DNA of 33,311 nucleotides from Omnitrophica bacterium GWA2_41_15 (lineage in GTDB: Bacteria > Omnitrophota > Gorgyraeia > Ghiorseimicrobiales > Ghiorseimicrobiaceae), in NCBI GenBank assembly GCA_919902105.1, contig CAKKQO010000073.1, forward strand, positions 1 through 33,311, given 5' to 3'. Under the pieces are notes generated by a model. The model worked only from the letters and a program-made list of their open reading frames with translations. It had not been told where the DNA came from and made no database searches. The position numbers and the translations under genes are program-made. Every line of letters begins with the position of its first letter. Positions within the stretch are counted from its first letter, which is position 1. Positions 18,992-33,311 of the stretch are shown in pieces.

Positions 18992-19809
18992 TCTACAACT
19001 GCGCTCAGCAAGCTTTTATCTTCTCTAAAACAATTAAGACAGGCGTATTTTTCCGGTAGATTTAAAAAATCTAATTTTTCCGGTTCTTCTAAAAGCTCAT
19101 AAATTGGCCTCTCCCAAGAAATGCCTAATTGTTCAAACGGTAACTTAGGCCGCATTGTTCTTACCTCGGGAACCTCTTTAAAAAAATCATTTTTAATAAA
19201 ATTTATCTCTCCATCGTTATTAACAATAAAATAGGCCGCTCCTTTTGCTTTTTTATAGAAAGAATAATCCGAATTAAACTGAGATGACACCCAATTAGAA
19301 GTCACTAACGGGGCTTCGCTTGAAGGATTTATCATAATATGCCCATAATGCGGCAAGACAACTATTTTTTCTTTGGCTTTGGCTTTTACCAATATGACGT
19401 CTTCTATTGTTTTTGGCTCTTCTTTACTTGGCCTCTGAAGCAAACAAAGCGCTTCCCCCCATAAAACCTCATACAATTCAGGATAAGAGCTTAGATGGTA
19501 ATGGCCGTGAGTCTTTACAAATTCATTGCCTAAAAACCCCGAGCGAATAATCGTTATATCGTATCGCAATTTATTCTTCTTAATTTTATCGTCGTCACCG
19601 GTACGATGAAGGCCTCGATACATATAATAAAGCTCTTCCTGCGCCTCTAGCTTGGCATCCATTAGGACTTCTCGCATTTGGCTTATCGTGCGCACATCCG
19701 GTTTAACCTGAAGGACATCATTGCCAAAGACCAATTCTAACTTCTCTTTATCTAACTTTAGAGCTAAACCTGAATTCTTCTCTAAGTTAATCATCTTAAA
19801 GCGAATCAT
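18988..19809 (-). CDS. Cupin-type glucose-6-phosphate isomerase (archaeal family)
   Basis: Interconverts glucose 6-phosphate and fructose 6-phosphate with a metal-binding cupin fold unrelated to ordinary bacterial Pgi. The family motif is plain: FVKTHGHYHLSSYPELYEVLWGEALCLLQR gives the H-x-H and the metal-binding Glu, and VVLPHYGHIMIN gives the last His; NWVSSQFNSDYSFYKKAKGAAYF is also typical. The 273 residues are longer than the archaeal enzymes (about 190), with an extra N-terminal helix region and a C-terminal tail containing CLNCF. It starts inside the end of ptsI (14-base overlap); an alternative ATG five codons later (19794) is equally plausible. A related sugar isomerase activity cannot be excluded. 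Confidence 0.82.
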   Translation of the reverse strand: MIRFKMINLEKNSGLALKLDKEKLELVFGNDVLQVKPDVRTISQMREVLMDAKLEAQEELYYMYRGLHRTGDDDKIKKNKLRYDITIIRSGFLGNEFVKTHGHYHLSSYPELYEVLWGEALCLLQRPSKEEPKTIEDVILVKAKAKEKIVVLPHYGHIMINPSSEAPLVTSNWVSSQFNSDYSFYKKAKGAAYFIVNNDGEINFIKNDFFKEVPEVRTMRPKLPFEQLGISWERPIYELLEEPEKLDFLNLPEKYACLNCFREDKSLLSAVVE

Positions 19810-21547
19810 AAACCTGCGGCACTAATTCTTTAAGTTTTTTCTTGCTGAATTTTTCTACTTCTCTGGCCGTAGAAAAAGTAAGCGCTTCTTCAGTTATCGC
19901 TTGCGCTTGCTTCATCGTAACTGAACGCACTAATTGTTTTATTTGCAAGATCATCTTACTCGGCATGCTAAATTCATCCAAACCCATACCTAAAAGAACG
20001 AGGGTAAACATAGGGTCTCCCGACATCTCACCGCACATACCCACCCAAATTTTATTCCTGTGGGCATCATCGATTATCTTCTTAATTAACCTTAATACCG
20101 CCGGATGCGCCGGTTCATAAAGGTAAGCTACTTTCTCATTAGTCCTGTCTACAGCAAGGGAATATTGGATCAAGTCATTAGTTCCGATGCTGAAAAAATC
20201 CGCTTCCTTAGCAATTAAATCCGCCGTAACTGCCGCCGAAGGAACCTCGATCATCGCGCCGATTTCCATATTTTTGTCAAAGGGCACGCCTTTAGTGCGT
20301 AATTCTTCTTTTACCTCTTCCAACACCCGGTTTGCCTGGCGCATCTCTTCTACGCCGGAAATCATCGGATACATTATCTTAAGCTTGCCATGCACTGAGG
20401 CGCGTAATATTGCCCGCAGCTGCACCTTAAATATATCTGGCCGGGCAAGGCAGAACCTAATTGCCCGCCAGCCTAAAAAAGGAACCATATCGCGAGGCAC
20501 CTGTAGCTGCGAGATAAATTTATCCCCTCCTAAGTCGAGCGTTCTAATAATTACCGGATAAGGCTTCATCATCTCGGCAACCAATTTATAGGCCTCGTAA
20601 TGCTCCTCCTCGCTAGGCAGATCCTTCCTATTCATATAAAAATATTCACTACGGTATAGGCCTATGCCTTCGGCTCCGTGATCAAGTAAAAAGGGGATTT
20701 CTTCCGGAAGTTCTATATTAGCCACAAGCTCAACGCGTCTTCCATCTCGGGTTTCAGCAAGCAGTTCTTTTAAGGAAAAAAATGCCTTGGCTTTAGCTAA
20801 TATTTCATCCTCAGCTTCTTTATAATTGGCGATGGTTTTGGCATCGGGGTTAATCACTATTATCCCGGCGCCTCCGTCAATAATAATGGTGTCTCCAGCC
20901 GTTATTTTCGACGTCGCCACCTCGACACCTACAACGGCAGGTATTTCAAAAGATTTTGCCATAATAGCGGTATGCGAAGTCTTTCCTCCGATATCGGTAA
21001 TAAAACCGAGGATATTTTTACGGTGCATTGCCGCGGTATCTGAAGGAGAAAGGTCATGCGCCACCACAATAACCTTTTCCTCAAAATCAGAAAGAGCTCT
21101 TTTCTTCTTGCCAGACAAAATCCGTAATACACGTTTACCGACATCATTAATGTCGGCGATCCTTTCTCTTAAATATTCATCCTCCATGCGAGAAAAAACA
21201 TTGACATATTTTTTTAATACTTCCTGGAAGATAAAATCCACATTGCATTTTTCACGCTTCACCCGAGAGATGACCTCCTCAATCAGCATTCTATCTTCTA
21301 AAACTAATAGATGCGCATCAAAAATCTGCGCCTGCTCTTGGTCAAATTCTTGTGCTATCTTTCTTTGCAGCGCTATCAATTCTTGCCGTGTCTGAATAAG
21401 CGATTCCTCAAATCGCACTATCTCGCTAACTACATCTCCCTCGCTAACAGCTCTCCTTGAGACTTCAAAATCATCCCGGCCTACAATATAAACAGGCCCG
21501 ATAACAATACCACTGGATGCAGGTATGCCTTTTAATATCTCATTCAT
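19796..21547 (-). CDS. ptsI: PTS enzyme I (PEP-protein phosphotransferase)
   Basis: Takes phosphate from phosphoenolpyruvate and passes it to HPr. The phosphorylated His is H192 in GGKTSHTAIMAKS. The N-terminal domain has the HPr-binding helical region (residues 30-140), and the C-terminal PEP-binding barrel has GIGLYRSEYFYM, ARPDIFKVQLRAILRAS, MIEVPSA, DFFSIGTNDLIQY and GMCGEMSGD. The 583-residue length equals ordinary EI, with no GAF domain of the PtsP/EI-Ntr type. It overlaps the HPr gene by eight bases. No sugar permease is close by, so the phosphate chain probably ends at the EIIA encoded upstream and is regulatory. Confidence 0.96.
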   Translation of the reverse strand: MNEILKGIPASSGIVIGPVYIVGRDDFEVSRRAVSEGDVVSEIVRFEESLIQTRQELIALQRKIAQEFDQEQAQIFDAHLLVLEDRMLIEEVISRVKREKCNVDFIFQEVLKKYVNVFSRMEDEYLRERIADINDVGKRVLRILSGKKKRALSDFEEKVIVVAHDLSPSDTAAMHRKNILGFITDIGGKTSHTAIMAKSFEIPAVVGVEVATSKITAGDTIIIDGGAGIIVINPDAKTIANYKEAEDEILAKAKAFFSLKELLAETRDGRRVELVANIELPEEIPFLLDHGAEGIGLYRSEYFYMNRKDLPSEEEHYEAYKLVAEMMKPYPVIIRTLDLGGDKFISQLQVPRDMVPFLGWRAIRFCLARPDIFKVQLRAILRASVHGKLKIMYPMISGVEEMRQANRVLEEVKEELRTKGVPFDKNMEIGAMIEVPSAAVTADLIAKEADFFSIGTNDLIQYSLAVDRTNEKVAYLYEPAHPAVLRLIKKIIDDAHRNKIWVGMCGEMSGDPMFTLVLLGMGLDEFSMPSKMILQIKQLVRSVTMKQAQAITEEALTFSTAREVEKFSKKKLKELVPQVYDSL

Positions 21548-21803
21548 CGCAAGTTAGGAGCCTTTCTAATTCTAAAAGCGCCTCCTCCGCATCATCGCCG
21601 GCCGCTTCAATTATCACTTCGCTTCCCTTAGCCGCGCCGAGCATAAGAATCCCCATAATAGATTTTCCGTTTACCACTTCACCGTCTTTAGCCACAGTTA
21701 TGCGGGCATCAAAGCGTGAGGCAATCTGCACAAAGAGCGCAGCAGGCCGGGCATGTAAACCCTGTTTATTACGCACCACTATTTTTTTATTTACTGATTT
21801 CAT
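21540..21803 (-). CDS. ptsH: PTS phosphocarrier protein HPr
   Basis: Small phosphate carrier of 87 residues between enzyme I and EIIA. The active His is H17 in NKQGLHARPAALFV. The second regulatory region reads NGKSIMGILML, with S48 at the position of the Ser that HPr kinase modifies in Firmicutes and many other bacteria. It overlaps ptsI by eight bases (ATGAATGA). Upstream it is separated from yvcK by a perfect 48-base palindrome. No HPr kinase gene is in this window. Confidence 0.96.
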   Translation of the reverse strand: MKSVNKKIVVRNKQGLHARPAALFVQIASRFDARITVAKDGEVVNGKSIMGILMLGAAKGSEVIIEAAGDDAEEALLELERLLTCDE

Positions 21804-21816
21804 ATTTCTATCTTTT

Positions 21817-21864
21817 AATTAGGGACACATCCCATTTTTTAAAAAATGGGATGTGTCCCTAATT
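21817..21864. repeat. Perfect 48-base palindrome between yvcK and ptsH
   Basis: Two 24-base arms, each the exact reverse complement of the other and with no spacer, starting AATTAGGGACACATCCC and centred on TTTTTTAAAAAA at 21840/21841. It begins four bases after the yvcK stop and ends 13 bases before the HPr start. The fold has A/U runs at the tip and not after the stem, so it is not a standard intrinsic terminator. Palindromes with GGGACACATCCC arms are familiar as dispersed repeats in some bacterial genomes; that comparison is from memory. It could be a mobile-element footprint or an mRNA stability hairpin. Confidence 0.85.
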
Positions 21865-21867
21865 ATG

Positions 21868-23178
21868 CTAAATGGAAAAAATTATCTGAGCAAGCTTATG
21901 CGAATCATGCCTGATTACCTCGCCAACTTCAACAATCTTTTCTTCCATAACTTTAAATCCTGCTTTTCTAATCCTATCTGCGTCATTTTTAATAAGGGAT
22001 GCTTTCTCTTCTTTATATTTTGTTATTAAGTGTTCGGGTATATTGGCAGTATTTACAATCACGTAATCAACTATACGCCGCTTAGAATGTGCTATTACCG
22101 TATTTAAATGATCGTATGCGGAATAACCGTCAGTTTCTCCATATTGGGTCATGATATTACAAACATAAATCTTCGCTGCGCGAGAGCCACCTATCGCCTC
22201 GGCTATTTCCCTAATTAATAAGTTAGGTAAAATGCTGGTATATAGACTTCCCGGGCCCAGCACAATAACCTCTGCTTCAGAGATAGCCCGTATGGCCTCA
22301 GGGGTTGCCAGAGCATCTGAAGGCCTTAAATACACGTTTTTTATCGGAGAACCCTTTTGAGGAATCTTGGCTTCTCCCTCAGTGCAAGTTCCGTCTTCGT
22401 GTTGGGCAACTAAAACCACTTTGCTTAATGTTGAAGGAAGAACTTGCCCCCGGATTGCCAGAACCTTACTTGATTCTTTAACCGCCTTTTCAAAATCCCC
22501 AGTCAGTTTACTCATTGCAGTAATAAAAAGATTCCCGAAACTATGCCCTTGCAGTTCCGAACTATTATCAAATCTAAACTGGAATAAATCACGCATCAAA
22601 GGCTCTGCCTCAGCCAAGGCCACTAAACAGTTACGGATATCGCCCGGCGGTAAAATTCCAAACTGTTCTCTAATTCTGCCCGAGCTTCCGCCGTCATCGG
22701 CAACTGTAACAATAGCGGTAATATTGCTCGTATATTCTTTTAAACCGTGTAAAAGCGTAGATAGCCCGGTTCCGCCGCCGATAGCGACAATCTTAGGCCC
22801 GCTTTCTAAATACTGTTTTTCATAAAGGATATCCAGTAAACCTTTACCTGCCCTCATTTCTTTGGAGGGTAAAAATAATTTAATAATAAACACTAATAAC
22901 TCTTTGAACCCTATAAAAATAAAATATATACCCAGCGCAACAGTCAGGATATCGCCGACTTTAGTAAGCGTTAATTTATGCGTAAAAAAACTTGCCTCAC
23001 CTAAACGCGATGCTCCGAATATGGTTAAAATAACCCCGATGACAGATACAACCAGCCAGCGCTTTATACCGATGCCCGGATAAAGCAGCTTGAGGAAAGT
23101 ATTCCTTATCCCCTGTTTTACCGGCCGAAAGGTCGCTCCCAGGTAACTGCGGAATATTGCGTTAAATCTTTTTTTCAT
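21868..23178 (-). CDS. YvcK/CofD-family gluconeogenesis factor with membrane-spanning N-terminus
   Basis: The C-terminal 310 residues are a YvcK-type (GlmR) domain: KIVAIGGGTGLSTLLHGLK, VTVADDGGSSGRIREQFG, LPPGDIRNCLVALAE, LQGHSFGNLFITAM and VIVLGPGSLYTSILPNLL. In Bacillus this protein binds UDP-GlcNAc and directs carbon to cell-wall precursors. The first 120 residues are an extension with two hydrophobic segments (about 40-60 and 75-105), so the protein is probably attached to the inner membrane. It shares 17 bases with the EIIA gene upstream and precedes HPr, placing a carbon-partitioning factor inside a PTS gene set. The family name is well supported; the ligand here is inferred. Confidence 0.9.
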   Translation of the reverse strand: MKKRFNAIFRSYLGATFRPVKQGIRNTFLKLLYPGIGIKRWLVVSVIGVILTIFGASRLGEASFFTHKLTLTKVGDILTVALGIYFIFIGFKELLVFIIKLFLPSKEMRAGKGLLDILYEKQYLESGPKIVAIGGGTGLSTLLHGLKEYTSNITAIVTVADDGGSSGRIREQFGILPPGDIRNCLVALAEAEPLMRDLFQFRFDNSSELQGHSFGNLFITAMSKLTGDFEKAVKESSKVLAIRGQVLPSTLSKVVLVAQHEDGTCTEGEAKIPQKGSPIKNVYLRPSDALATPEAIRAISEAEVIVLGPGSLYTSILPNLLIREIAEAIGGSRAAKIYVCNIMTQYGETDGYSAYDHLNTVIAHSKRRIVDYVIVNTANIPEHLITKYKEEKASLIKNDADRIRKAGFKVMEEKIVEVGEVIRHDSHKLAQIIFSI

Positions 23179-23632
23179 CTTCCTGCTGGATTATCTTTAA
23201 AACTGTTTTCTCATCTATTGCAGACTTTAAACTTTCACGAAAATATTTATCTTTTAAGAGGCGTGAAATGCGCGCAAGCGCTTTAAGATGAGGCCCTGCT
23301 GAATCCTGCGGGGCGAGGAGCAAAAAGAAGATATATACAGGCTCTCCGTCTAAAGAGTCGAAATCAACGCCCTTCTTAGAGATGCCAAAAGCCGCCACAA
23401 GGCTTGCGACGCAATCACTTTTGGCATGAGGAATGCCTACGCCTTGGCCGATAGCCGTTGAACCTAAGGCCTCGCGGCTTTTCAATAATTCAATAAGTTT
23501 ATTTTTATTTTTTTTATCTATGCCTTCTGCAGCCATCAACAAATCCACTAATTCTTTTATTACGCCATCTTTATCAGCAGCCTTGATATTCACTGTCACC
23601 GCGTCTTTAGAAAGAAAATCCATAATCTTCAT
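23162..23632 (-). CDS. ptsN: PTS EIIA domain protein, fructose/PtsN type
   Basis: A single EIIA domain (156 residues) of the fructose-mannitol/nitrogen family. The phosphorylated His is H69 in IGQGVGIPHAKSDCV. The rest (VYIFFLLLAPQDSAGPHLKALARISRLLKD) matches EIIA-Ntr, which acts as a regulator and not in sugar uptake. No EIIB or EIIC is attached or adjacent. AGGAGG precedes the ATG at a suitable distance. It stands at the head of EIIA-YvcK-HPr-EI, about 110 bases after tRNA-Gly. It could be called a fructose EIIA by homology alone; the absence of permease genes favours the regulatory reading. Confidence 0.9.
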   Translation of the reverse strand: MKIMDFLSKDAVTVNIKAADKDGVIKELVDLLMAAEGIDKKNKNKLIELLKSREALGSTAIGQGVGIPHAKSDCVASLVAAFGISKKGVDFDSLDGEPVYIFFLLLAPQDSAGPHLKALARISRLLKDKYFRESLKSAIDEKTVLKIIQQEDEKKI

Positions 23633-28893: not shown

Positions 28894-29499
28894 ATGTGGT
28901 ATCGCTTTTTTAGGGGAGTATTTAGAATTATATTAAAGTTGTTTTTTCGGCTTAAGGTGGAAGGTTTAGAAAACCTGCCGCAAAAGAGTAATTTTATCCT
29001 AATTGCTAACCATACAAGCTATTTGGATCCCTTAGTAATTCTGGCGGGTGTGCCCCAAAAAATTTCTTGTATCGCTCTTCGGGGTCTTTACCGGATATTC
29101 TGGCTAAAGTGGTTTTTGCAGAAAATGTCCGCTTTCCCCAGCGGCAGTTCATCAGAAAAAGCAGTTTCTTTATTAATGCAGAATAAAAATGTGGGATTAT
29201 TTCCTGAAGGCGGCGTAAGCCGCGACGGAAGCCTGCGAGAATTTAGAAGCGGCGCCGCCCTTCTTGCTATTAAAACAGGCAGGCCGATTGTGCCTTGTGC
29301 GATTTTCGGCACCCATGCCGCCTTACCCAAAGGGGCGGTATTGCCAAAGTTTAGTGCTATAACTATAAAGATAAGCAAGCCCATATATTTATTAAAGGAG
29401 TTTACAGATATTATTGACGATGTATATTTACAGGATGGTATTTTTAGAGTTAGGAATATAATAATGGAACTATTAAATAAACCAGCCGCAGACAGATGA
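28894..29499 (+). CDS. plsC: 1-acyl-glycerol-3-phosphate acyltransferase (PlsC family)
   Basis: Membrane-associated acyltransferase of 201 residues that probably adds the second acyl chain in phosphatidic acid synthesis. The catalytic H(x4)D motif is NHTSYLDP (H40, D45), and the glycerol-phosphate-binding motif is FPEGGVSRDG (103 onward), a variant of the usual FPEGTRS. GRPIVPCAIFGT is the fourth acyltransferase block. An N-terminal hydrophobic stretch (1-20) may attach it to the membrane. It is the first gene behind a near-consensus promoter and is followed, after a hairpin element, by an acyl-ACP reductase fusion. Acyl-ACP would be a common substrate of both. The family also includes lyso-ornithine and other acyltransferases. 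Confidence 0.9.
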   Translation: MWYRFFRGVFRIILKLFFRLKVEGLENLPQKSNFILIANHTSYLDPLVILAGVPQKISCIALRGLYRIFWLKWFLQKMSAFPSGSSSEKAVSLLMQNKNVGLFPEGGVSRDGSLREFRSGAALLAIKTGRPIVPCAIFGTHAALPKGAVLPKFSAITIKISKPIYLLKEFTDIIDDVYLQDGIFRVRNIIMELLNKPAADR

Positions 29500-29519
29500 A
29501 AGTGCGGAAATTTCAAACT

Positions 29520-29602
29520 GACTCCTTGCTTAAACGCTTGTCCCGAAACTTCGGGACTGCGCAAGCTTCGGAGTTAATCCCGCTATTCGCGGGATTAAGG
29601 AG
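29520..29602 (+). repeat. Double-hairpin element, copy 4, in front of the AAR fusion gene
   Basis: Stem A pairs ACTCC (29521-29525) with GGAGT (29570-29574) and encloses GCTTG/CAAGC (29536-29566) and GTCCCGA/TCGGGAC (29540-29557). Stem B pairs TTAATCCCGC (29574-29583) with GCGGGATTAA (29589-29598) with a five-base loop. GGAG follows directly, seven bases before the ATG. The junction GGAGTTAATCCCG is nearly identical to GGAGTTAATTCCG of copy 2 read on its coding strand, so the architecture of the ilv-region elements is repeated 22 kb away on the other strand. Confidence 0.6.
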
Positions 29603-29609
29603 ATGCTAA

Positions 29610-31181
29610 ATGCCGGATAGTGATTTGGTGCATATGAGGATCTCAAGGATTATCCCTGCTCCGAAGGATAACATAATCCGTTTTGTTACACAGGTTGAAG
29701 ACTTCCCTTCGTACATACCGACGGTGAAAGAGGCAAAGATTATTGAAAGAAAACACAACGTAATGAAGACCAAGTGGCTTGTGCAGGTGGATGGCGTGCC
29801 TATAAGTTGGGTAGAAGAAGATACCCTTGCCTTAAGGCAGGATTCTATTTATTTTAAAGCCATCGGAGGTGATTTAGAAGAGTTTAGGGGGGAATGGAAA
29901 TTCTATAATAACCATAGCGGAACAGAAGTAGTTGTGGATGTCTACCTAAAGGTAGGTATTCCGGCTATACGGGAATTTGCCGAGCCCTATATAGAGAAAC
30001 TGCTGACAAAGAATTTTGAGGCGATGCTTTCTGCGATAGAGAGCAGGCTTATATCTTTAAAGTATTCGCAGTTTAGAAAAGGAGAGGTTGTTAAATTGGC
30101 GGGCTTTGGCGTGCTGGGGCATTTTTATAATTATAACCATCTGGTTAAGTGCCTAAAGATGGTTAGGCCGGACTTTAGGGTGCCGTCGAGAGAGTTTTTG
30201 AGTAAATTGTTCACAATGACGCCTTCTTTTGCGATGCATGAGATGCAGGAATTTAAGTCTAAAACAGGCGAAGCTACCCGCGGATGTTTTATCTTATGCA
30301 CATTTATTCCCGAGATGCTGGATAAGGACCTCCACGCGGTTTACTCCAAAGTTGTGCGCGCCTGCAGGGTAGCCCAGAGGCACGGTGTTGGCGTCGTAAG
30401 TTTGGGCGGGTTTACCTCTATTGTCGGAGAAAGGCTCGGCCATCAGATAAGCGAAGATGTAGATATACCCATTACCACCGGCAATACCTATACCGCGGCA
30501 ATGGCAATAGACGGCATTGAAAAGGCGGTAGAGCTTTTAGGTAAAGATATAAAAGATTTAAAATTAACCGTGATCGGCGGTACCGGTGATATCGGAAGCG
30601 CCTGCAGCCGTGTACTGACGGATAGAGTAAAAGAAATAATTATAACCGGAAGGACTAAATCTCATCTTCGTCGCCTGCGCGATGAATTAAGAAAGAAACG
30701 CCATGCCCGCATTGAGGCTACGATGGATAACAAAAAAGCCGTCAGAGGCGCGGACATAGTTATTGCTTCAGCCAGCGTGGCCGCGGCAATATTAGATACT
30801 GCTTGGTTTAAGCCGGGGACGGTTATCTGCGATTTGGGTTACCCTAAAAATATTTCTTACGCGCCCATAGACAGGAAAGATATTATCGTTTTTTCCGGAG
30901 GGCTGGCGCGCCTGCCTACACCGATAAATACCGGAGTGGATATGGGCCTTCCTTCGCCGGATGTTTCCTATGGATGTTTTTCCGAAGCGATTATCCTTTC
31001 GCTTGAGCGGCGTTTTGAGAATTACAGTTACGGCCGGGGTAATATTATGCCGGAAAAAATAGATGAAATCAGGAAGTTAGGCGCAAAACACGGGTTTGGG
31101 CTTGCGCCTTTTTACTGGGCAAACCGCTTAATCACACAGGAACATTTCGAAGAGGTAAAAAAGGCTGCTGCTCGTGCTTAA
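29610..31181 (+). CDS. SRPBCC lipid-binding domain fused to long-chain acyl-ACP reductase (AAR-like)
   Basis: A two-domain protein of 523 residues. Residues 8-150 look like an SRPBCC/START domain of the COQ10/polyketide-cyclase type (IPAPKDNIIRFVTQVEDFPSYIP; EEFRGEWKF), a fold that encloses lipids. Residues 165-523 follow cyanobacterial acyl-ACP reductase from end to end: FGVLGHF (166-172), FIPEML, VSLGGFTSIV (G266), TTGNTYTA (289-296), the NADPH loop GGTGDIGSA (323-331), GYPKNIS, YGCFSEAIIL with the thioester Cys as C456, and YGRGNIMPEKI. In cyanobacteria AAR reduces acyl-ACP to fatty aldehyde. Separate AAR is about 340 residues, so the N-terminal domain is an addition. GGAG at seven bases fixes the start. 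The downstream kinase overlaps by 8 bases. No aldehyde-deformylating oxygenase is in the window, so the aldehyde's fate is unknown. Confidence 0.85.
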   Translation: MPDSDLVHMRISRIIPAPKDNIIRFVTQVEDFPSYIPTVKEAKIIERKHNVMKTKWLVQVDGVPISWVEEDTLALRQDSIYFKAIGGDLEEFRGEWKFYNNHSGTEVVVDVYLKVGIPAIREFAEPYIEKLLTKNFEAMLSAIESRLISLKYSQFRKGEVVKLAGFGVLGHFYNYNHLVKCLKMVRPDFRVPSREFLSKLFTMTPSFAMHEMQEFKSKTGEATRGCFILCTFIPEMLDKDLHAVYSKVVRACRVAQRHGVGVVSLGGFTSIVGERLGHQISEDVDIPITTGNTYTAAMAIDGIEKAVELLGKDIKDLKLTVIGGTGDIGSACSRVLTDRVKEIIITGRTKSHLRRLRDELRKKRHARIEATMDNKKAVRGADIVIASASVAAAILDTAWFKPGTVICDLGYPKNISYAPIDRKDIIVFSGGLARLPTPINTGVDMGLPSPDVSYGCFSEAIILSLERRFENYSYGRGNIMPEKIDEIRKLGAKHGFGLAPFYWANRLITQEHFEEVKKAAARA

Positions 31182-33311
31182 AGAATTATTATCTTTCTCC
31201 AATTATCATTTTAACCCTCACGCTGTGCCGGTGATAGGGGTAAGCCTGCTTATTTTTTCTATCGGCATTTTCATATTTTTCCAGGCAAAAAAATTAATTA
31301 AAAACGCTGCCTTCTTCTTCCTCTGCACAAGCTTAAGTTTATGGCTGTTCGGGACAGGCATAGTTTATCTTTCTGCAAATCCGGATACAGCCCTGTTTTG
31401 GTATAAATATTTCACTTTTTTCGGCGTAATAAACATTATGCCCAGCGCTTATTTATTTTCTGTAACCTCAAGCGGCTCCCTGCGTAAACAGCGCGGCTTC
31501 GTGGCCCTTTCTTTTTTGTTGGCATACCTTTTTTATTTTCTGGCTATCGCCACTGATAAATCAATAGGCACTCCCCGTTTATATTTCTGGGGCTACTACC
31601 CTGCCTATAAACCCTTAAATCTCTTATTTCTTCTATGTTATTCTATAACTTATATCGCAATTCAAGCTAACCTCTGGTTTGCTTATCAGAATGAAGAGAT
31701 TCCCATAAAAAAGACTCAAGTTTTAATAATATTTGCCGGTTTTCTTATCGGTTTTACCGCTTCTTTTGATTTCGCGGCAAAGATTTTTCCGGTTCCTCTT
31801 TATCCTTTCGGCTTTATGCCTATGTTTATTTTCACCTGTATGCTGGCATATTCGGTCATCCGGCATAAGGCATTTGATATAGAGACGGTGATTCATAAAA
31901 CTGCCGGATGGGTATTGGCCTCTTCCACCGCCTTTATCCCGATAATCATCCTTGCCTATCGCTTAGAGCCGTGGTATCAGACAGCGCCTGCTTTTCAAGT
32001 AGCGCTTCTTTGCGGCGGGGTTTTTTATCTGCTTACGCTTTACATCCAATACACCCAGCCGAAAATTGACCATTTTTTTCAGAGACGCAAATACAAATTA
32101 GAAGAAATCTCTACTAACTTCACCGAAGATTTAGTGCATTTAAAAGGGCTTAATCAATTAATAGAACGTATAGAAGACGTGCTCAAGGATACTCTATACC
32201 CCAAGCGCACGGATATTTTTATTTATAATGAGGTAAAGAAAAGATACCTGCTTACCAATTGGAATAATTCCATAGAACTGGAGGAAAATAAATTCTTAAG
32301 GTGGCTCTTGGAAAATAATAAGATCGCCTACCGCGATTTTGTCCCCATAGACCCGGTATATCTTGCGGTGCGCCAAGAAGCCGAAGAATATTTTAACAAG
32401 ATGGATGTCGCTCTTGTTGTCCCTTTGGTTTTAAATGAAAAACTCTTAGGGCTCATAAATTTAGATAAAAAAGCCAACCTCAAGCGCTATACAGCGGCAG
32501 ACCTGCATTTTCTTGCCACATTAAAAAACCAATCCGCGATTGCCATATCCAATTCCCTTGTTTATGGAAATATTGAAGAGCAGGTCAGGCAGCGCACCAA
32601 AGAATTAATGGAAGTGCAGAAACAATTGGTACAGGCGGAGAAGTTAGCTACTGTCGGCACACTCGCCGGCGGCGTGGCGCATGAGATAAACAACCCCTTA
32701 ACCGCGATACTCACCAACGTGCAGATGATGCTGATGGATGATTCTAATGATGCCTTACTCGACAGAGAATCTTTAGCGTTAATTGAGGAGGCGACAAAGC
32801 GCTGCCGCGAAATCGTCAAGAAACTGATGGTTTACGCCAGAAGGCCCTTAGAGCCAAGCAAGGTATCCAATGTAGATTTTTTAAAGGCCGTAGAAAATGT
32901 TATCTCTTTTTTACACTACCAATTAGAGCAGGAAAATGTTAAAATAATTTTTGCGGCTAAAAAAGAAAATAGTTACTTGGTAAATGCGGACTGTAATGAA
33001 TTAGAGCAGGTGGTGACAAATTTAATCTTAAATGCTAAGGATGCGATTAGGAAAATAAAAAAGAGCGGTAATATTTATATTACGCTTTATAAAACTAACA
33101 AGCAAATAAAGTTTGAAGTTAAAGATGAAGGCGCGGGCATACCCCAAGAAATACTCTCAAAAATATTTGACCCATTCTTTACCACAAAAGACGTCGGCCA
33201 GGGCTTAGGCCTTGGCCTTTCCATATCGCAGGCAATTGTGGAAAAATACAATGGCGCAATCAACGTGCAGTCTGCGCCCGGCAAAGGCTCTGTATTTACA
33301 GTGCGTTTCCC
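31174..33311 (+). CDS. Membrane sensor histidine kinase (7TM-GAF-HisKA-HATPase), 3' end cut by window
   Basis: An open frame from GTG at 31174 to the window edge (712 full codons, no stop). The GTG overlaps the AAR stop by eight bases. Residues about 18-265 form a series of hydrophobic helices resembling the 7TM histidine-kinase N-terminal region (NYHFNPHAVPVIGVSLLIFS; HKAFDIETVIHKT). A GAF domain follows (about 330-470; VVPLVLNEKLLGLINLDKK), then a helical linker, the H-box GTLAGGVAHEINNPLTA with H503, the N-box TNLILNAKDAI, G1 DEGAGIP (D651), F-box FDPFFTTK and G2 GLGLGLS. All ATPase elements are intact. The layout recalls PrsK-type kinases of exopolysaccharide/PEP-CTERM systems, but the response regulator is not seen. 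Overlap suggests it is co-made with the acyl-ACP reductase. Confidence 0.9.
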   Translation, partial: MLKELLSFSNYHFNPHAVPVIGVSLLIFSIGIFIFFQAKKLIKNAAFFFLCTSLSLWLFGTGIVYLSANPDTALFWYKYFTFFGVINIMPSAYLFSVTSSGSLRKQRGFVALSFLLAYLFYFLAIATDKSIGTPRLYFWGYYPAYKPLNLLFLLCYSITYIAIQANLWFAYQNEEIPIKKTQVLIIFAGFLIGFTASFDFAAKIFPVPLYPFGFMPMFIFTCMLAYSVIRHKAFDIETVIHKTAGWVLASSTAFIPIIILAYRLEPWYQTAPAFQVALLCGGVFYLLTLYIQYTQPKIDHFFQRRKYKLEEISTNFTEDLVHLKGLNQLIERIEDVLKDTLYPKRTDIFIYNEVKKRYLLTNWNNSIELEENKFLRWLLENNKIAYRDFVPIDPVYLAVRQEAEEYFNKMDVALVVPLVLNEKLLGLINLDKKANLKRYTAADLHFLATLKNQSAIAISNSLVYGNIEEQVRQRTKELMEVQKQLVQAEKLATVGTLAGGVAHEINNPLTAILTNVQMMLMDDSNDALLDRESLALIEEATKRCREIVKKLMVYARRPLEPSKVSNVDFLKAVENVISFLHYQLEQENVKIIFAAKKENSYLVNADCNELEQVVTNLILNAKDAIRKIKKSGNIYITLYKTNKQIKFEVKDEGAGIPQEILSKIFDPFFTTKDVGQGLGLGLSISQAIVEKYNGAINVQSAPGKGSVFTVRF

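Follow-up and report, generated by a model that had tools for sequence, protein, structure and literature searches.

Near the 3′ end of the stretch of DNA analyzed here (the window: all 33,311 nucleotides of contig CAKKQO010000073.1 from Omnitrophica bacterium GWA2_41_15), a protein combining an SRPBCC domain with a predicted acyl-thioester reductase is encoded in an operon with a 7TM receptor histidine kinase. We propose that this locus is probably a signaling cassette, a lipid-aldehyde synthase with its own receptor kinase, which would serve either a cell–cell signal or self-sensing of the product. Sequence comparison and structure prediction provide four supporting observations: the domain composition of the fusion protein, the conservation of its cysteine C456, the conservation of the operon, and the covariation of the sensor half of the kinase with the tailoring genes of related loci. 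Omnitrophota, ultra-small bacteria that occur widely and for the most part have not been cultured, show host-dependent traits (PMC10066038). When the text of this genome survey of the phylum was searched, no mention of signaling, histidine kinases, or aldehydes turned up. In the open-licence literature we found no prior description of the fusion, of a pair formed by an AAR-type enzyme and a receptor kinase, or of the locus or quorum sensing in Omnitrophota.

The SRPBCC–reductase fusion and its distribution

The fusion is encoded by an open reading frame of 523 codons with an ATG start (29610-31181, forward strand). Its N-terminal domain (residues 1-150; 29610..30059, +) matches the Pfam family PF03364 (Polyketide_cyc) over residues 15-139 with 60.4 bits, above the cut-off of 23.4 (E = 2.8e-16), and an AlphaFold2 model of the protein (pLDDT 89.3) predicts a helix-grip fold for the same region, followed by an AAR fold. 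By both measures the N-terminus belongs to SRPBCC, as a sequence-only reading of the window had claimed. In a Foldseek search, this part of the model matched the SRPBCC protein TTHA0849 (2d4r) with a TM-score of 0.92 over the TTHA0849 length, as well as the polyketide ARO/CYC proteins TcmN, ZhuI, and WhiE (TM 0.71-0.84). Fold and Pfam family are thus common to TTHA0849, the RatA/Coq10-type proteins, and the fusion, which differs from the RatA/Coq10 type in being joined to a reductase and in having no toxin or ubiquinone context.

The reductase domain (residues 156-523; 30075..31178, +) matches the AAR model TIGR04058 at residues 166-496 with 172.2 bits (E = 1.8e-50), far under the equivalog cut-off of 449.7, and the PigE model NF053554, which covers the reductase part only, scores level with it at 171 bits (E = 3.4e-50; threshold 850 bits). 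The top PDB match by sequence in phmmer is the cyanobacterial AAR 6jzq (EC 1.2.1.80; E = 2.9e-37, 30% identity), to which the C-terminal part of the model also aligns in Foldseek (E = 1.8e-25; TM 0.83-0.85). Rossmann fold, TTGNT and GGTGDIGS motifs, and a thioester cysteine are shared with that enzyme; unlike it, the fusion carries an N-terminal SRPBCC domain and has a kinase rather than an aldehyde-deformylating oxygenase (ADO) as its neighbor. Because the equivalog cut-off is not reached, the label of cyanobacterial-type AAR given in the sequence-only reading should be softened: the likeness in fold and sequence stands, while membership was overstated for a domain equally close to PigE. Sequence and model nevertheless confirm the fusion of an SRPBCC domain with a domain predicted to be an AAR/PigE-type acyl-thioester reductase. 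The view that AARs are normally stand-alone proteins also needs qualification, as AAR-like domains are already known in fusions such as PigE (PMC8341465).

The predicted acyl-thioester cysteine, C456 (codon 30975..30977, +), aligns with Cys294 of AAR, a column that reads Ser in the C294S mutant structure 6jzz, so the catalytic cysteine of AARs is present here, as had been expected. Of 43 aligned fusions, 42 have this cysteine and all have E459. The exception, L099 (744-2339, +), has a serine in its place and is directly followed by a second AAR gene, which suggests a division of labor between the two.

Homologs of the fusion were found in 100 of 384 sampled Omnitrophota genomes, and about 61 of these have it in fused form, with a match that covers both domains at an identity of at least 41%. 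They come from approximately 19 family groups that span more than one class; the recurrence of the fusion in 66 distinct loci shows that it is no assembly artefact. All named records of the fusion clade are from Omnitrophota except L095, titled Planctomycetales, and the lineage is indeed one in which an AAR-type enzyme was not expected. Furthermore, at least seven other genomes (G074, G040, G131, G071, G013, G050, and G136) have the two as separate genes, SRPBCC directly ahead of AAR, indicating that the two parts belong together, fused or not. ADO (PF11266), the alkane-forming partner of AAR, was found neither in the window's own genome, near the fusion or elsewhere, nor in any of 197 genomes of the class, with a positive Synechococcus control; its absence had been noted for the window.

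Operon context and the 7TM histidine kinase

Overlooked in the earlier reading, the kinase gene (31174..33309, +) overlaps the stop of the fusion by 8 nt and loses its last residues to the contig end. HisKA_7TM (PF16927; 40.5 bits, cut-off 28.6), HisKA, and HATPase_c matches identify it as a HisKA_7TM kinase, with a GAF region between sensor and core. In the model of the sensor half (residues 1-240; 31174..31893, +; pLDDT 92) seven long helices and a beta hairpin are predicted, and the HisKA/HATPase core (residues 481-712; 32614..33309, +) is conserved whatever the tailoring type of the locus. The Foldseek matches listed for the sensor model are all GPCRs, the best with E = 1.9e-3 and TM 0.53; as none passes E 0.001, we limit the claim to 7TM topology and do not extend it to GPCR homology. 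An identity as PrsK, the PEP-CTERM kinase (TIGR02916), was considered for the kinase and rejected (109 bits, cut-off 300).

A 7TM kinase lies downstream of the fusion, directly or after one or two tailoring genes, in 55 of 57 assessable loci: 48 with full-length kinases, four with kinases cut by contig ends (L081, L088, L095, and L102), and three recognized by Pfam (L036, L057, and L066). The fusions of L055 and L096 have no kinase nearby, and L097 offers too little sequence for assessment. Unfused AARs likewise precede 7TM kinases, often with KS, CLF-like, KR, and ACP genes between them. The window's genome holds only two PF16927 kinases in all. One of its other contigs, C21 (locus L147), encodes response regulators, an aldehyde dehydrogenase, an NMO-family flavoprotein, and a second 7TM kinase; since the same genes come after the kinase in the sister genome G001, at 85% nucleotide identity, C21 is probably the continuation of the window contig (C73). 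In the sister genome's locus (L048:5508-6489, -) a HEPN and nucleotidyltransferase gene pair is inserted between the response regulators of the kinase. Genes at first labeled NtrC proved to be methyltransferases, one of them with a PilZ domain.

At the head of the operon stands a PlsC-like acyltransferase gene (28894..29499, +; 201 residues, HX4D motif NHTSYLD, PF01553 E = 8.6e-26), whose homologs immediately precede the fusion in about 30 of its loci and often overlap its start. The intergenic leader (29500..29609, +) contains two GC-rich stem-loops (fold z-score -3.8). The second ends at the ribosome-binding site of the fusion; the first is a dispersed palindrome, GTCCCGAAACTTCGGGAC (29540-29557), which occurs at about six genomic places with 0-1 mismatch. 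Several fusion loci have a FadL-type outer-membrane channel upstream. An 86-residue open reading frame upstream of PlsC, taken for an ACP, proved to encode an HTH protein in the locus that was checked; true ACPs are present in other loci. Elsewhere in the window (19796-23632, -), a PTS enzyme I gene and a PTS EIIA-like gene that overlaps a CofD-like gene are found, in what is a small Omnitrophota genome.

Some loci contain dedicated KS, CLF-like, ACP, and KR genes, the KS having the catalytic motifs TACAAGN, HGTGT, and GHTMGA and the CLF-like partner beside it lacking them; there the acyl chain probably comes from this set. No dedicated KS/CLF pair was found in the window's genome or its three closest relatives, where the KS-type matches, at no more than 29-39% identity, fit general KAS enzymes. 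In the absence of the pair, general FAS is probably the source of the chain in these four genomes. Among the unfused AARs, those of L117, L118, L119, L123, L124, and L125 are accompanied by KS, CLF-like partner, KR, FabA-like, and FAD oxidoreductase genes, and in several by an ACP, an arrangement resembling a type II PKS/FAS-like cluster with putative reductive release. Directly 3′ of the 7TM kinase in L071 (13304-14914, +) is a receiver–ketoacyl synthase fusion (Response_reg 6-118, KAS 125-491), in which phosphorylation may control chain elongation, suggesting that at least one lineage has feedback on synthesis. L045 (6361-8499, -) encodes a fusion of SRPBCC, LuxD-like acyltransferase (PF02273), and methyltransferase, followed by two kinase-like genes of about 730 residues each, and is possibly a parallel system without AAR.

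Tailoring genes and the sensor half

Among 46 complete loci, 30, like the window, have no gene between fusion and kinase. The others have a GMC oxidoreductase (4), an SDR (4), an SDR with a formyltransferase (2), a class III aminotransferase with a GNAT (3), an aminotransferase with a formyltransferase (1), a B12-binding radical SAM protein (1), or a second AAR (1). Transaminases require an aldehyde or ketone substrate, and the class III aminotransferase genes thus support aldehyde production. A precedent is PigE, whose AAR-like N-terminal domain supplies the aldehyde for a class III transaminase (PMC8341465). The fusion has such a domain in common with the thioester reductase-transaminases PigE and TamH (PMC8341465, PMC9594044), and some Omnitrophota loci have a PigE-like context, with the class III aminotransferase as the next gene. 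Unlike PigE and TamH, the fusion possesses an SRPBCC domain, and the transaminase is a separate gene in the relatives and missing in the window.

A kinase that senses the product of its operon would be expected to vary with the tailoring chemistry in the sensor half but not in the core. Across the 46 loci, the distance between 7TM halves is associated with tailoring category when reductase distance is controlled for (partial Mantel r = 0.54, p = 0.0005), whereas the kinase core (r = -0.02, p = 0.62) and the SRPBCC domain are not, the label permutation of the test ignoring phylogeny, some tailoring categories consisting of one locus, and core and synthase serving as internal controls. The sensor association persists when only the 16 tailored loci are compared (r = 0.69, p = 0.001). 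Nearest neighbors have the same tailoring in 38 of 46 loci when chosen by sensor, against 23 by core and 26 by AAR; likewise, coarse tailoring categories require a minimum of 7 changes when mapped on the sensor tree, against 12 for the fusion and 15 for the core. In windows of 60 residues, the association extends over all 240 sensor residues, weakens across the linker and the GAF region, and disappears in the core. The fusion protein shows no association in any part, not even at the reductase end that adjoins the tailoring genes. SDR genes go with one sensor group and aminotransferase genes with another, and these pairings recur in separate synthase clades. The kinase of L073, from the window's own family, is 69% identical to that of the window in the core and 17% in the sensor; L073, L086, and L116 have no tailoring gene, yet their sensor halves differ from those of other untailored loci. 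That the sensor half tracks tailoring while the core and the reductase end do not points to a cassette of cognate product and receptor.

Proposed mechanism and alternatives

In organization, the locus looks like CqsA/CqsS with an unrelated synthase. In the alpha-hydroxyketone systems CqsA/CqsS and LqsA/LqsS, the gene for the synthase of a lipid-derived molecule adjoins that for a multi-TM sensor kinase (PMC3285556, PMC3376566), an adjacency which the presumed synthase and the kinase reproduce here, the product being a signal by analogy. Quorum-sensing synthase and sensor are usually adjacent and thought to coevolve as a cassette (PMC3376566), and in CqsA/CqsS the specificities of production and detection match (PMC3285556). 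The synthases differ, the Omnitrophota protein being a Rossmann thioester reductase and not a PLP-dependent CqsA-type enzyme, as do the receptors, here a HisKA_7TM kinase with GAF whose cell–cell role is putative.

From catalysis and choice of chain to product release, ligand recognition, and phosphorelay, we infer the following sequence of steps. The SRPBCC domain would bind the acyl chain of acyl-ACP, and a role in holding or handing over that chain is plausible. The AAR/PigE-type domain would transfer the acyl group to C456, and NAD(P)H would reduce it to an aldehyde. In many relatives, the genes between synthase and kinase would alter this aldehyde by oxidation or reduction, radical chemistry, or transamination with N-acetylation or N-formylation; the window's variant has no tailoring gene, and therefore the aldehyde itself or a simple derivative would be both its product and its ligand. 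The 7TM half of the kinase would recognize the product, and its core would signal to CheY-like response regulators encoded downstream.

Other readings deserve consideration. In one, the operon product is a structural or storage lipid, and biosynthesis is all that the kinase regulates, as a membrane-state or feedback sensor, with no cell–cell signal. The PlsC-like acyltransferase at the operon head, the dedicated KS/CLF-like/ACP/KR genes of some loci, and the L071 fusion, through which phosphorylation may act on chain synthesis, fit such a role, and a kinase within a biosynthetic operon may just control that operon. A general membrane sensor, however, has no need to vary with headgroup-tailoring genes, and the dedicated KS/CLF pair is missing from the window's genome; we find this reading unlikely. 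The substrate could instead be a non-fatty carrier-bound thioester, PigE-like or polyketide, in place of long-chain acyl-ACP, as the equal PigE and AAR scores, the resemblance of the SRPBCC model to polyketide ARO/CYC proteins, and the KS and CLF-like pairs of several loci might indicate. With no such pair in the window's genome and its three closest relatives, acyl-ACP from ordinary FAS is the simpler substrate there, and we rate this possibility as somewhat doubtful.

The covariation itself could be a by-product of linkage. Tailoring genes adjoin the sensor-coding end of the kinase gene, along which the association declines, and the exchange of one segment near a recombination hot spot could link both without recognition, the kinase sensing something unrelated. 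Such exchange leaves the boundary of the association between sensor and core unexplained; moreover, the equally adjacent left flank, the AAR C-terminus, shows no association, and the same pairings recur in separate synthase clades, so that we grant this explanation only a small chance. Even less credible to us is the view of the sequence-only reading, a metabolic source of aldehyde for alcohols, waxes, or ether lipids beside an incidental kinase. AAR chemistry is metabolic in cyanobacteria, and an aldehyde dehydrogenase is present in the sister genome's locus and on the matching contig of the window's genome. Against this stand the adjacency of the kinase in nearly all assessable loci, with start/stop overlaps, and the missing ADO; the intervening genes of relatives, too, encode aldehyde-, alcohol-, and amine-handling and N-acylating enzymes and not those of wax or ether-lipid synthesis. 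On the whole, the earlier interpretation is partly supported.

Returning to the synthase–receptor cassette, we tentatively extend it to a lipid-aldehyde signal family of Omnitrophota that may have diversified into chemical dialects (pherotypes), with a constant SRPBCC–reductase synthase, exchangeable headgroup tailoring, and a co-exchanged 7TM sensor. If true, reductive (AAR-type) release would join the bacterial routes to lipid signals, and the paired synthase and sensor genes could be studied in laboratory hosts, with no need to culture the organism. For the Omnitrophota themselves, a synthase–receptor cassette with swappable chemistry would amount to a cell–cell language.
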